Position numbers and translations under genes: made by a program. A stretch of DNA of 64,000 nucleotides, from the NCBI RefSeq assembly GCF_002159335.1, contig NZ_NFHP01000002.1:124001-188000 (forward strand). Direction: 5' to 3'. The stretch's first letter is position 1. Every line of letters begins with the position of its first letter. This document shows positions 32,907 through 61,149 of this stretch, piece after piece. The notes beneath the pieces were generated by a model. That model was given only the letters and a program-made list of their open reading frames with translations, did no database searches and was not told the origin of the DNA. The stretch comes from Collinsella sp. An7 (GTDB taxonomy: Bacteria > Actinomycetota > Coriobacteriia > Coriobacteriales > Coriobacteriaceae).

Positions 32907-33255
32907 CGGTTGCGCTTTGTTATTCGCGTCAATTGGTGGCTTCGCTCCGTCGTGGGTGGTTCGGCGTCCAACGTCTGCTATTGCAACAACAACGGCAACG
33001 CCAACGGCACCTCCCCTCGCAACACGTGGGTGCGGCCCCGCCCCGGCTTCCCTTTCACTGCCAGACCGAGTAAGCGAGAGCCGAAAGCCGAGCGCAAAGA
33101 GGAAGGAAGGCGCGACCATCGGCCTCAGCGCCGTAAATATGCACCCCGCGCGGGGAGCCGGACGCTTCTTGCATGGCCGGGCGCTCCGGCGCTCAGCCCG
33201 GTTTCATGGTCTCCCCGCAAAGCGGCTGTTCGAGCGCCACTGCTAGCCGTGCGGG
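32907..33255 (+). ncRNA. DGR template RNA region with template repeat (TR)
   Basis: About 350 noncoding bases between avd and the reverse transcriptase. TR is 32923-33051 and carries 19 adenines, nine of which are changed in VR. The spacer after TR is GC-rich and could fold as the part of the RNA that primes cDNA synthesis. Open frames across the region are repeats of the target's frame and are not genes. Confidence 0.85.
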
Positions 33256-33264
33256 GTGCCCTCC

Positions 33265-34434
33265 ATGAACTCAGACGACAGGCGCGCTGCCCGCAGGGCT
33301 AGGCGCGAGGAAAAGCGCGCCCGCAACAGGGCCGAGAGAATAGACGGCCTCACGCTTGAGCGTATCGCCGACATGGACGCGCTCTACGACGCCGCCATGA
33401 AGTCGAGGCGCGGTGTGTCGTGGAAGGCGTCTGTTCAGGGCTACTGCCTCCACGTTCTGGGCAACGTCTACAAGGCACGCCAAGACCTGCTGAACGGCGA
33501 GGACATCCGGCGCGGCTTCCACGAGTTCGACCTCATTGAGCGCGGCAAGCTTCGGCACATATCGTCCGTGCACTTCAGCGAGCGGGTCGTACACAAGTCG
33601 CTGAGCCAGAACGCGCTCGTCCCCGCGATCATGCCGACGCTCACCGCCGGCAACTCCGCCAACATGAAGGGCAGGGGCGTCGACTACGCTATAGCGCGGC
33701 TCAAGAACCAGCTCGCGCGCCACTACCGGCGGCACGGAACCGATGGCTACGTGCTGCTCGTTGACTTCAGCGACTACTTCGCGCGCATCGACCACGACGC
33801 GGCCAAGCGGCTCGTGATGAAGGCCCTCGATGACGAACGTCTCGTGGCGCTGACAAACGGCCTCATAGACGCATGCGGCGACGTGGGCCTCGGCCTCGGA
33901 AGCGAGCCGAACCAGATACTCGCGGTTGCGCTCCCGAACCCCATCGACCACTGGGCGGAGGAGATGGCGGGGCTTGAGGCGACGGGCCGCTACATGGACG
34001 ATTCCTACTACATCGACATGAGCAAGGACAAGCTCAAGCTGGTCTTGGCCTGCATCGAGATACTGTGCGATGACCTCGGCATCACAATCAACAAGAAGAA
34101 GACGCGTATCGTCAAGCTATCGCGCGGCTTCAGGTTCCTCAAGAAGCGGTTCTACTACGGCCCCACGGGCAAGGTCGTCGTGCGCCCGAGCCGCGAGGCC
34201 ATAACCCGCGAGCGCCGCAAGCTCAAGGCGATGCGCCGCATGCTAGACCGTGGCGAGATAACGCTGAGGCAGATAAACCAGTCATACCAGAGCTGGCGCG
34301 GCGGCATGCTCAGGCTCGACGCGCACGAAACCGTCCTCAGCATGGACAGGCTCTACAAGGAGCTGTTCGTCAATGAATACCCCCCCCCCGGAGCGGAAAT
34401 CCTGACCCTGACTAGGCTCAAGGCCGCCGCGTAA
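33265..34434 (+). CDS. DGR reverse transcriptase
   Basis: About 389 residues from ATG 33265; GTG 33256 is the alternative and neither ribosome site is strong. RT blocks: VLLVDFSDYFARIDHDAAKR (motif A), GLGLGSEPNQILAVALPNPI (the DGR-type replacement of the usual QG...SQ motif), YMDDSYYIDMSKD (catalytic Asp pair), and ITINKKKTRIVKLSRGFRFL. It copies the template RNA with errors at adenines. The C-terminal end is encoded across a C10 tract (34380-34389). Confidence 0.95.
   Translation: MNSDDRRAARRARREEKRARNRAERIDGLTLERIADMDALYDAAMKSRRGVSWKASVQGYCLHVLGNVYKARQDLLNGEDIRRGFHEFDLIERGKLRHISSVHFSERVVHKSLSQNALVPAIMPTLTAGNSANMKGRGVDYAIARLKNQLARHYRRHGTDGYVLLVDFSDYFARIDHDAAKRLVMKALDDERLVALTNGLIDACGDVGLGLGSEPNQILAVALPNPIDHWAEEMAGLEATGRYMDDSYYIDMSKDKLKLVLACIEILCDDLGITINKKKTRIVKLSRGFRFLKKRFYYGPTGKVVVRPSREAITRERRKLKAMRRMLDRGEITLRQINQSYQSWRGGMLRLDAHETVLSMDRLYKELFVNEYPPPGAEILTLTRLKAAA
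34380..34389 (+). repeat. C10 homopolymer near the 3' end of the DGR reverse transcriptase
   Basis: Ten consecutive C encode part of YPPPG, 15 codons before the stop. A slip of one base would change only the last residues. Confidence 0.9.
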
Positions 34435-58325: not shown

Positions 58326-59186
58326 TTAGAATGCTGCCTGCACCGCGTCGCCGAAGGTCTCCTTGAGGTACGCCTTGAAGTCGTCGGTCTGCAGCACCTC
58401 GACCAGCGCGGCGATGCGCTCGTCGTCCTCGAGCTCGGGCGTCGTCACGATAACGTTGGCGTACTCGTTCTTGATGACGTCGGAGTCGGCGCTCTCCTGC
58501 GCCACGGCGTCGGCGAGCGAAAGGCCGGCGTCGATGGCGTAGTTGCCGTTGATGACCGAGAAGTCCACATCGGCCAGCGTGCTCGGCAGCATCGCGGCCT
58601 CCTGCTCCAGGATCTCGATGTTGTGCGGGTTCTCCACGATGTCGTTCTTGGTGGCGGTGATGCCGGCGTCCTCGGAGAGGGTGATGACGCCGTTCTCTTG
58701 GAGCAGCAGCAGCGCGCGGCCCTCGTTGGTGGCGTCGTTGGGCACCGAGATGGTCGCGCCGTCGGGGATCGTCGAGAGGTCGCTGGACTTGCCGGCGAAG
58801 ATGCCCATCGGCTCGAAGTGGATCTTGCCCACGTTCACGAGGTCGGTGCCGTTCTCCTCGTTGTAGTTGTTGAGGTAGTTGATGTGCTGGAAGTAGTTGG
58901 CGTCCACCTCGCCCGAGCTCGTGTCCTGGTTGGGGAGGATGTAGTCGGTGTACTCCTTGACCTCGAGGGTGATGCCCTGCTCCTCGAGCAGCGGCGCGGC
59001 AAAGTCGTTGAGAATCTCGGCATGTGGGCTCGGGCTCGCGGCGACGGTGAGCGTCTGGGTCTCGGCCGCGGCGGAACCGGTGGCGGCGCCGTCGCCCCCG
59101 TTGGAGCAGGCGGCGAGGGCGCCCGCGGCCACGAGGCCGGCGGCACCGGAGAGGAAGGAGCGGCGGGAGAGGCTGAAGTTCGTCAT
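58326..59186 (-). CDS. metQ: Methionine-binding lipoprotein MetQ (NlpA family)
   Basis: ATG 59186 (AAAGGAA upstream); 286 residues. The signal NFSLSRRSFLSGAAGLVAAG ends in LAAC, a lipobox behind a Tat-like RR motif. The body has VAASPSPHAEILNDFAAPLL, EYTDYILPNQDTSSGEVDAN, YFQHINYL and FEPMGIFAGKSSDLSTIPDG, typical for MetQ. It captures methionine outside and gives it to MetI. It is last in metNIQ, with a 138-base gap after metI that may hold an extra signal. Confidence 0.95.
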   Translation of the reverse strand: MTNFSLSRRSFLSGAAGLVAAGALAACSNGGDGAATGSAAAETQTLTVAASPSPHAEILNDFAAPLLEEQGITLEVKEYTDYILPNQDTSSGEVDANYFQHINYLNNYNEENGTDLVNVGKIHFEPMGIFAGKSSDLSTIPDGATISVPNDATNEGRALLLLQENGVITLSEDAGITATKNDIVENPHNIEILEQEAAMLPSTLADVDFSVINGNYAIDAGLSLADAVAQESADSDVIKNEYANVIVTTPELEDDERIAALVEVLQTDDFKAYLKETFGDAVQAAF

Positions 59187-59324: not shown

Positions 59325-60065
59325 CTAGCGCTTGATCGCCGCGCGCTCGCGGTTGGCCGCACGCTTGGAGGCCGCCTTGACGACCGACGCGGTGCGATGG
59401 TCGACCTTGCGGGCGGCGAGGTCGCAGACGCTCTGGATCACCTGCACGATCACGATCAGAATGATCACCGCGACCCACATGACCTCCTCGACGCGCCGGT
59501 AGTAGCCATAGCGCACGGCGATGTCGCCAAGGCCGCCCGCGCCGATGGCACCCGCCATGGCCGTATAGCCGAGCACCGAGATGAGCACCACGGCCACACC
59601 GCGCACGATGGAGGGCAGGGCCTCGGGCAGAAGCGCCGAGAACACGATGCGCGGCACCGAGGCGCCGCAGGCCTCCACCGCCTCAACGCTCTCGCGCGGG
59701 ACCTCGGCGAGCGACTGCTCAACCATGCGCGCGATAAAGGGCGAGGCGGAGAGCACGAGCGGCGGGATGGTCCCCAGAATGCCCGAGCCCGTCCCCATGA
59801 TGAGGCGCGTAAAGGGGATGATAAAGACCATGAGCACGATGAACGGGAACGACCGCAGAATGTTGACGATCCATCCGAGCACGGCGTTGAGCACGGGCGC
59901 CGGGCGCAGTGACCCGGGTGCGGTGAGATAGAGGACGACGCCGAGCACGAGACCGATGGCGTACGAGATGGCCGTCGGCACGAGCACCATCACGATGGTG
60001 CTCCACGTTCCCTCGGCTAGGAGTGCGCCGTACTCGGCGATAAAGGCGTTTACGGCATCAAGCAT
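59325..60065 (-). CDS. metI: Methionine ABC transporter permease MetI
   Basis: 246 residues from ATG 60065, overlapping metN by 8 bases. Five hydrophobic segments and the EAA-type loop (VEAVEACGASVPRIVFSALL) are seen; TWSTIVMVLVPTAISYAIGL and NILRSFPFIVLMVFIIPFTR fit the family. It forms the membrane channel as a dimer with MetN. The C-terminus carries a basic tail not common in E. coli MetI. Confidence 0.94.
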   Translation of the reverse strand: MLDAVNAFIAEYGALLAEGTWSTIVMVLVPTAISYAIGLVLGVVLYLTAPGSLRPAPVLNAVLGWIVNILRSFPFIVLMVFIIPFTRLIMGTGSGILGTIPPLVLSASPFIARMVEQSLAEVPRESVEAVEACGASVPRIVFSALLPEALPSIVRGVAVVLISVLGYTAMAGAIGAGGLGDIAVRYGYYRRVEEVMWVAVIILIVIVQVIQSVCDLAARKVDHRTASVVKAASKRAANRERAAIKR

Positions 60066-60807
60066 CCCAATCAACCCTTTCGAGCAGCACCTTGGCGGCA
60101 TTGGACTGGGGGTTGGCGAACACGTCCGCCACGCTCCCCTGCTCCACCACGCGTCCGTGCTCCAAGACGGCAACGTTGCGGCAGATCTTCTCGACCACGC
60201 CCATCGAGTGCGTGATCACGATCACGGTAACGCCCGTATCGCGGTTGATCTGACGCAGCAGCTTTAAGATCGTGTTGGTGCTCGCGGGGTCGAGGGCCGA
60301 GGTGGCCTCGTCGCAGAGGATGTACTCAGGGTCGCACGCGAGCGCGCGGGCGATGGCCACGCGCTGCTGCTGACCGCCCGAGAGCTGAGACGGATAGGAC
60401 TGTGCCTTCTCCTTGAGGCCCACCATGTCGAGCAGCTCGAGGGCGCGCTCGCGGTTAGCCGCGGTGACTTTGCCCGTGGCCGCCAAAAACGGGAAGCACA
60501 CGTTGGCGAGCACGGTCTTTTGCGCCAGCAGGCCAAAGTTCTGGAAAATCATGGCCACGCGACGGCGGTAGCTGCGCAGCGCCGCGCCGGAAAGCCCGGT
60601 GATATCCTGCCCGTCGACGATGATGCTCCCCGAGGTGGGGCGCTCGAGCAGGTTGATGCAGCGCACAAGGGTCGACTTGCCGGCACCGCTCATGCCGATG
60701 ATGCCCATGATGTCGCCGTCGGCGATCGTGAGCGAGACGTTGTCGAGCGCATGGGGCGCGCCCTCGGCTGCGGCATAGGCCTTGGTGAGATTCTTGATTT
60801 CTATCAC
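60058..60807 (-). CDS. metN: Methionine ABC transporter ATPase MetN, without the C-terminal NIL domain
   Basis: GTG start at 60807; 249 residues. Walker A GMSGAGKST, signature LSGGQQQRV, Walker B YILCDEATSALDP and the H-loop VIVITHSMGVV are all present. E. coli MetN is about 340 residues because of a C-terminal ACT/NIL domain that binds methionine and stops transport. Here the protein ends soon after the ATPase core, so this feedback control is absent. Control may lie in the Met-rich leader upstream. Confidence 0.95.
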   Translation of the reverse strand: MIEIKNLTKAYAAAEGAPHALDNVSLTIADGDIMGIIGMSGAGKSTLVRCINLLERPTSGSIIVDGQDITGLSGAALRSYRRRVAMIFQNFGLLAQKTVLANVCFPFLAATGKVTAANRERALELLDMVGLKEKAQSYPSQLSGGQQQRVAIARALACDPEYILCDEATSALDPASTNTILKLLRQINRDTGVTVIVITHSMGVVEKICRNVAVLEHGRVVEQGSVADVFANPQSNAAKVLLERVDWDA

Positions 60808-60888
60808 GGGAAAAACTCCGCTCGATGAGGTGGTCTCAAGTGAGGCGCGCGGTCTCCCGCCGGAGACTGCGAAGGAGGCGCCCGGTCT

Positions 60889-60984
60889 TTACCTGCCCGC
60901 GATGTCTCGCGGCATGACAAAGTGCCCGGGCGAGGGCATCTGCATGACCATCATCATCGTGATATGTGCGGAAGTCGTAAACAT
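60889..60984 (-). CDS. Methionine-rich leader peptide of metNIQ (31 aa)
   Basis: A 31-codon frame from ATG 60984 to TAA 60889. It reads MFTTSAHITMMMVMQMPSPG and then HFVMPRDIAGR: seven Met, five of them within residues 10-16. Typical amino-acid attenuator peptides have such runs of the pathway's amino acid. A promoter (TTGCGC, 17 bases, TACCCT) ends 7 bases before the ATG, so the mRNA likely starts at the ATG (leaderless). After the Met run come hairpins TGCCC/GGGCA, CCGCGA/TCGCGG and GTCTCC/GGAGAC before metN. The T5 tract at 60815-60811 precedes the metN GTG. Confidence 0.7.
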   Translation of the reverse strand: MFTTSAHITMMMVMQMPSPGHFVMPRDIAGR

Positions 60985-60991
60985 GGTGTCT

Positions 60992-61020
60992 AGGGTAGCA
61001 GCGCGCGGGGCCGAGCGCAA
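60992..61020 (-). promoter_or_regulatory. metNIQ leader promoter
   Basis: Minus strand: TTGCGC (61020-61015), 17-base spacer, TACCCT (60997-60992). With usual spacing transcription begins at or beside the leader ATG at 60984. Confidence 0.65.
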
Positions 61021-61078: not shown

Positions 61079-61115
61079 CAAAACGGGCGCCCACCGCATC
61101 TAGGTAGGCGCCCGT
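61079..61115 (-). terminator. Terminator after the Asp23 gene
   Basis: Minus strand ACGGGCGCC (61115-61107) pairs with GGCGCCCGT (61091-61083), a 9-bp stem with a 15-nt loop, followed by TTTTGC. It ends the AmaP-DUF2273-Asp23 unit before metN's promoter. Confidence 0.75.
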
Positions 61116-61149
61116 CGCATGCCTTCGGCAGACGTGCCGTCAGAATAGG

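Follow-up and report, generated by a model that had tools for sequence, protein, structure and literature searches.

The stretch of DNA analysed here (the window) is 64,000 nt, or 64 kb, of the Collinsella sp. An7 genome, and positions given below are positions within it. On its minus strand lie the three genes of the metNIQ transporter, together with the leader that is the subject of this report, and all features of the locus are on that strand. metN (60058–60807) encodes an ABC ATPase and starts with GTG at 60807, metI (59325–60065) a permease and metQ (58326–59186) a lipoprotein, the last two probably starting at internal ATGs. The Shine-Dalgarno sequence of metN is GGAG at 60816–60819, conserved as ATCGAGCGGAG in the alignment. 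A Pfam search of MetN found no NIL domain. A preliminary description of the locus had noted this absence, correctly, and had taken it to fit a shift of control to the RNA level. That second part fails, since MetN genes of similar length, with an open frame of 258 aa and homology ending at residue 248, occur in two related genomes where no leader was found (G228 and G233), and we therefore do not use NIL loss as specific support.

Upstream of metN is an open reading frame of 31 codons (60889–60984, read from 60984 to 60889), MFTTSAHITMMMVMQMPSPGHFVMPRDIAGR followed by TAA, whose stop is 81 nt from the metN GTG. In the An7 copy, Met residues occupy positions 1, 10, 11, 12, 14, 16 and 24, and codons 10–16 (MMMVMQM; 60937–60957) form a Met run that we propose as control codons. 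Ahead of the frame is a promoter, TTGCGC-N17-TACCCT, with its −35 element at 61015–61020 and an extended −10 element (TGC-TACCCT) at 60992–61000, the 3′ edge of which is 7 nt before the leader ATG. When close relatives are aligned, TTGC keeps its alignment position and TGnTAnnnT stays about 6–7 nt before the ATG. From this conserved spacing we infer that transcription starts at the ATG itself, i.e., that the leader is leaderless. The preliminary description had reported the frame, its seven Met positions, the 81-nt gap and the promoter; re-reading the sequence gave the same frame, positions and distance, and the promoter is not only present but also holds its place before the ATG in dozens of genomes.

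Short Met-rich frames are not confined to this site (of 460 short frames in the window, 4 have at least six Met, the metN leader being one of them), as one would expect if the leader were a functionless frame that is rich in Met by chance. It is the sole promoter-linked, short, leaderless frame with a Met run within the window, and its RNA folds better than shuffled versions (z = −2.7). What refutes the chance reading, leaving it a negligible probability, is the conservation of the leader across an order, its covariation (below) and its exclusive link to metN.

A DNA search of 100 relatives placed the leader upstream of metN across the whole family, and a search for metN found the gene in 42 of 67 family genomes, with the leader in the same 42. 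We also scanned about 85,000 species with a pattern made of the leader’s two invariant blocks. This gave 47 matches, all in Coriobacteriales and all 47 upstream of metN, in Collinsella, Enorma, Olsenella, Thermophilibacter and unnamed Coriobacteriaceae or Atopobiaceae. Class-wide, the regions upstream of metN contain diverged copies in other Olsenella-family genera, in a third family (f2, probably Eggerthellaceae) and, once, in a fourth family; in these further groups some metN genes had no recognisable leader before them (e.g., L149, L150, L154 and L158). Other genes under the same leader were sought among the non-metN matches of ATGCCCAAGCCYGG, and those inspected do not look like leaders. 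Judged from these sequences, the leader is not a product of chance and is kept across the order Coriobacteriales, with promoter position, in-frame Met codons and RNA segments conserved in dozens of genomes.

In many bacteria, methionine genes are usually controlled at the RNA level by the SAM-I riboswitch (RF00162). The preliminary description had seen no SAM riboswitch here, and this agrees with the Rfam searches, which found no riboswitch at the locus and no SAM-I in the whole An7 genome. The family genomes with SAM-I matches are L237–L240 and 15 others; 18 of these 19 are Collinsella without metN, and one (G029) has both SAM-I and metN. In this family, the two types of element are thus nearly mutually exclusive.

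Whether the frame is read can be judged by choosing the ATG of each leader from the promoter alone and then comparing its frame with that of the MPKPG core. This put 77 of 81 promoter-defined ATGs in frame, and the other four look like mis-picked promoter patterns. Some 70 different 5′ coding segments retain the promoter immediately ahead of the ATG, and where closely related copies are aligned, the gaps separating start from core have lengths divisible by three. Met makes up 24% of the codons in this interval (228 of 939 in 67 distinct leaders, with at least one in each), about tenfold over an ordinary protein, and the interval’s ATGs are in frame 240 times and out of frame twice. A few copies have a single Met there (L148 and L151). 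The other residues drift freely (pairwise comparison of codons 2–6 gives 1139 nonsynonymous and 231 synonymous differences), as expected when the control codons alone matter. This conservation of frame suggests that the leader is translated, and the amino acid specified by its in-frame Met codons is the one served by the downstream genes, as in an attenuator.

The same results bear on a different reading, in which the leader is a pure, riboswitch-like RNA element and its reading frame is incidental. Such an element would account for the long blocks conserved at the nucleotide level, and for the motif ACATA, which covers +18 to +22 relative to the leader ATG (60963–60967). Of 70 distinct 5′ segments, 91% have ACATA, compared with 4% in codon-shuffled controls. 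Its position is pinned to the start site and not to the core, and it is retained in several leaders that read it in a different frame (L155, L156 and L162); no pairing partner was found for it. However, the in-frame Met run, the bias in ATG frame, the indels in threes and the conserved leaderless start codon all argue that the frame matters, and the locus gave no match to Rfam at gathering scores. At 12 related loci, Rfam gave nothing convincing at E-values up to 5. We therefore consider a pure RNA element very improbable. Elsewhere in the window, at 33056–33279, is a strong Rfam match to RT-2 RNA (RF03077, 135.5 bits).

Three segments of the leader can pair in two ways. Segment 1 (UGCCC; 60934–60938) pairs with the GGGCA of segment 2 (CGCCCGGGCA; 60923–60932), which uses its 3′ part for this and its 5′ part to pair with segment 3 (CCGGGCG; 60879–60885). 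The resulting helices, 1:2 (UGCCC:GGGCA) and 2:3 (CGCCCGG at 60926–60932 with CCGGGCG at 60879–60885), have a segment in common and are mutually exclusive, as is characteristic of attenuators; CGCCCGG sits in the peptide’s Pro-Gly codons, CCGGGCG close to where the frame ends. The long 2:3 hairpin (60879–60932), with CCGCGA/TCGCGG as its upper stem, is the fold we propose for methionine starvation. All three hairpins named in the preliminary description (TGCCC/GGGCA, CCGCGA/TCGCGG and GTCTCC/GGAGAC) are able to form. Its suggested alternative fold, TGCCC with the GGGCA of GCGGGCAGG, is present in the An7 copy but not conserved in relatives, which mostly have GTGCAGG or GTGCATG there, and we have dropped it in favour of 2:3.

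Alignment of the region upstream of metN across Coriobacteriia, as the preliminary description had proposed, revealed covarying stems along with the conserved Met codons. RNAalifold on 39 leaders recovers the long 2:3 hairpin with a covarying upper stem, plus a separate third hairpin. Segment 3 is invariant in close relatives and has compensatory changes in distant families. For the base of 2:3, we aligned 22 distinct types of core plus segment 3 across families: 94.8% of cells are paired, with 13 double-sided changes (a count that is not fully independent, as complementarity was one of the guides used to place segment 3 in distant leaders), and 0 of 500 shuffles, which ignore the relatedness of the sequences, were as high. 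Pairing is at most 61% once the register is slid. The 1:2 helix has double changes at two pairs, and in two leaders all three segments are altered jointly with both helices preserved: L162 has UGCUC, GAGCA and UGCUUGGGC, and L163 has UGCUU, AAGCA and GUUUGGGC. Among the sequence data, we regard this triple covariation as the strongest evidence for what would be a two-state switch.

It also helps to judge a further reading, that the nascent chain itself arrests the ribosome, with Met-Pro-(Lys/Ser/Leu)-Pro-Gly stalling it, perhaps via free methionine or SAM. Indeed, across four families no stretch of the peptide is better conserved than MP[KSL]PG, and other Met codons are few in some leaders. 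However, its Pro and Gly codons coincide exactly with the segments that pair, the peptide otherwise drifts freely (see the counts for codons 2–6), and in L162 and L163 MPKPGH becomes MLKPEH or MLKPKH while compensation restores both helices. Helices that are kept when residues change imply a constraint on the RNA, so the conserved “MPKPG” reflects pairing, and no conservation of the peptide independent of pairing is seen in these two leaders. An arrest peptide is therefore very unlikely.

For control by a translating ribosome, the Met codons must be positioned so that segment 2 stays free during a stall. We modelled this with equilibrium folding in which the part covered by the ribosome, for an assumed footprint, was masked. 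In the An7 copy, the predicted probability of 2:3 is 0.05 for ribosome-free RNA, 0.39–0.52 with the A site at Met10–12, 1.00 at Met14 and 0 from codon 16 onward, and with the ribosome at the stop codon the 1:2 hairpin has a probability of 1.00. Across 41 genomes, a stall at any Met preceding the core Met gives a mean 2:3 probability of 0.83–0.93, and a ribosome at the stop gives 0, with a mean of 0.91 for 1:2; stalling at the core Met, by contrast with earlier Met codons, would prevent 2:3. In these thermodynamic models, the Met codons are thus placed so that stalling leaves segment 2 free. The models also have 1:2 forming immediately in nascent RNA (0.97 in the 41 genomes) and ribosome-free RNA favouring 2:3 in most relatives (0.67–0.85), so in those relatives it is translation to the stop that would remove 2:3. 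Of 89 leaders, 80 have segment 3 covered when the ribosome has reached the stop. That such a ribosome masks one arm of 2:3 is not a universal rule: it holds in 81 of the 89, and in the other 8 neither arm is sufficiently covered. Compared with its relatives, the An7 copy has lost 1 nt, so that its stop comes about 20 nt earlier and its frame ends before segment 3. A stop before segment 3 is also found in some Olsenella-type leaders and in L035.

Between segment 3 and metN is the third hairpin (GTCTCC...GGAGAC; 60848–60871), for which we counted 43 double-sided changes at 9 of 10 pairs, a number reached in 0 of 500 shuffles that likewise take no account of relatedness. Its loop has a GGC conserved in two families, with a closing pair that alternates between C-G and U-A. 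Kissing of this loop with segment 3 was considered and rejected, GCC not being conserved in segment 3. On its 3′ side, the hairpin is followed by CGCC (60844–60847), which can pair with the GGCG of segment 3 and so extend the hairpin; this complement is kept in most family members and lost in Olsenella-type and some other copies.

The readout may be intrinsic termination, Rho-dependent termination or translation. In the window, no U-tract was found after the third hairpin, where the sequence is CGCCTCACTTGA, and no classical attenuator terminator is evident before metN; relatives range from no U-tract to a partial one, CGCCTTCTTTTT. Upstream, GACGGGCGCC...GGGCGCCCGTTTT (61080–61120, minus strand) is apparently the intrinsic terminator of an Asp23-family gene, which suggests that this genome does use terminators of the hairpin plus T-run type. 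A variant compatible with the attenuator reading keeps the same sensor and has a translational or Rho-dependent output in place of intrinsic termination. Besides the missing canonical U-tract, it draws support from two known systems: mycobacterial Cys leaders are described as controlling downstream translation (PMC9031893), and the leaderless leader peptide metL upstream of metNIQ in Streptomyces lividans is likewise reported to lack a typical terminator (PMC8079986). Against it, accessibility of the Shine-Dalgarno sequence in the folding model averages about 0.2–0.36 in every state with no consistent switch, so we did not retain sequestration of that site, and many Collinsella copies allow segment 3 to lengthen the third hairpin as far as a CGCC that precedes UUCUU. 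We rate the chances of this variant as even.

Taken together, sequence comparison and folding models make it likely that the metN leader acts on metNIQ as a leaderless, ribosome-mediated methionine attenuator. RNA polymerase would start at the ATG of the Met-rich peptide, and segments 1 and 2 would form their short hairpin upon synthesis. When charged Met-tRNA is scarce, the ribosome would stall on Met codons just 5′ of segment 1, leaving segment 2 free for the long 2:3 hairpin, the pairing of which is indicated by covariation. When methionine is plentiful, the ribosome would reach the stop, over segment 3 in most copies, and block 2:3; 1:2 would then re-form, with segment 3 later freed to lengthen the third hairpin. 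Given the transporter’s role, starvation presumably switches metNIQ on, in which case 2:3 would mark the ON state and the extended third hairpin would mark OFF.

Ribosome-mediated attenuators control the trp, his, leu, ilv and thr operons. The metN leader shares with the trp/his type a short peptide with (here putative) control codons, a hairpin directly after them, exclusive 1:2 and 2:3 pairing and a cognate gene downstream. Unlike that type, it would sense methionine, its start is predicted to be leaderless, it has no clear intrinsic terminator, and its stop is usually near segment 3, whereas theirs is near segment 2.

Within Actinobacteria, the closest comparison is with the leaderless polycysteine uORFs that act as attenuators in mycobacteria (Canestrari et al. 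2020, cited in PMC9031893). A leaderless start, contiguous control codons and amino-acid-responsive attenuation, which these have, are all proposed for the metN leader of the same phylum as well; they differ in using Cys rather than Met and in the genes controlled, and the covarying exclusive fold is evident in the metN leader. The S. lividans peptide metL is the only case found in the literature on methionine leader peptides. Its sequence, MSTTSDRTPATEATTTPGARCMCRRMCAF, has neither the Met run nor the MPKPG core and so no visible homology to the Coriobacteriales leader, and the account in PMC8079986, as far as its passages on metL go, concerns one genome and includes no conservation analysis. 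In a comparative survey of Actinobacteria, methionine operons were reported to have no conserved RNA regulatory structure ahead of them (PMC1262725).

The metN leader is tied strictly to one gene, keeps its Met codons and shows compensatory changes pointing to two exclusive folds. It raises the question of how Met-tRNA can be sensed by elongation codons when Met also starts the peptide. A tentative and rather doubtful extension is an order-wide methionine attenuator in which the start codon doubles as a control codon on a leaderless mRNA, with a non-intrinsic readout and ACATA as a further component; if the start codon does act in this way, initiator and elongator Met-tRNA could be sensed together. 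The attenuator reading itself, which we consider likely, would mean that in a major group of gut bacteria control by leader peptides extends to methionine.
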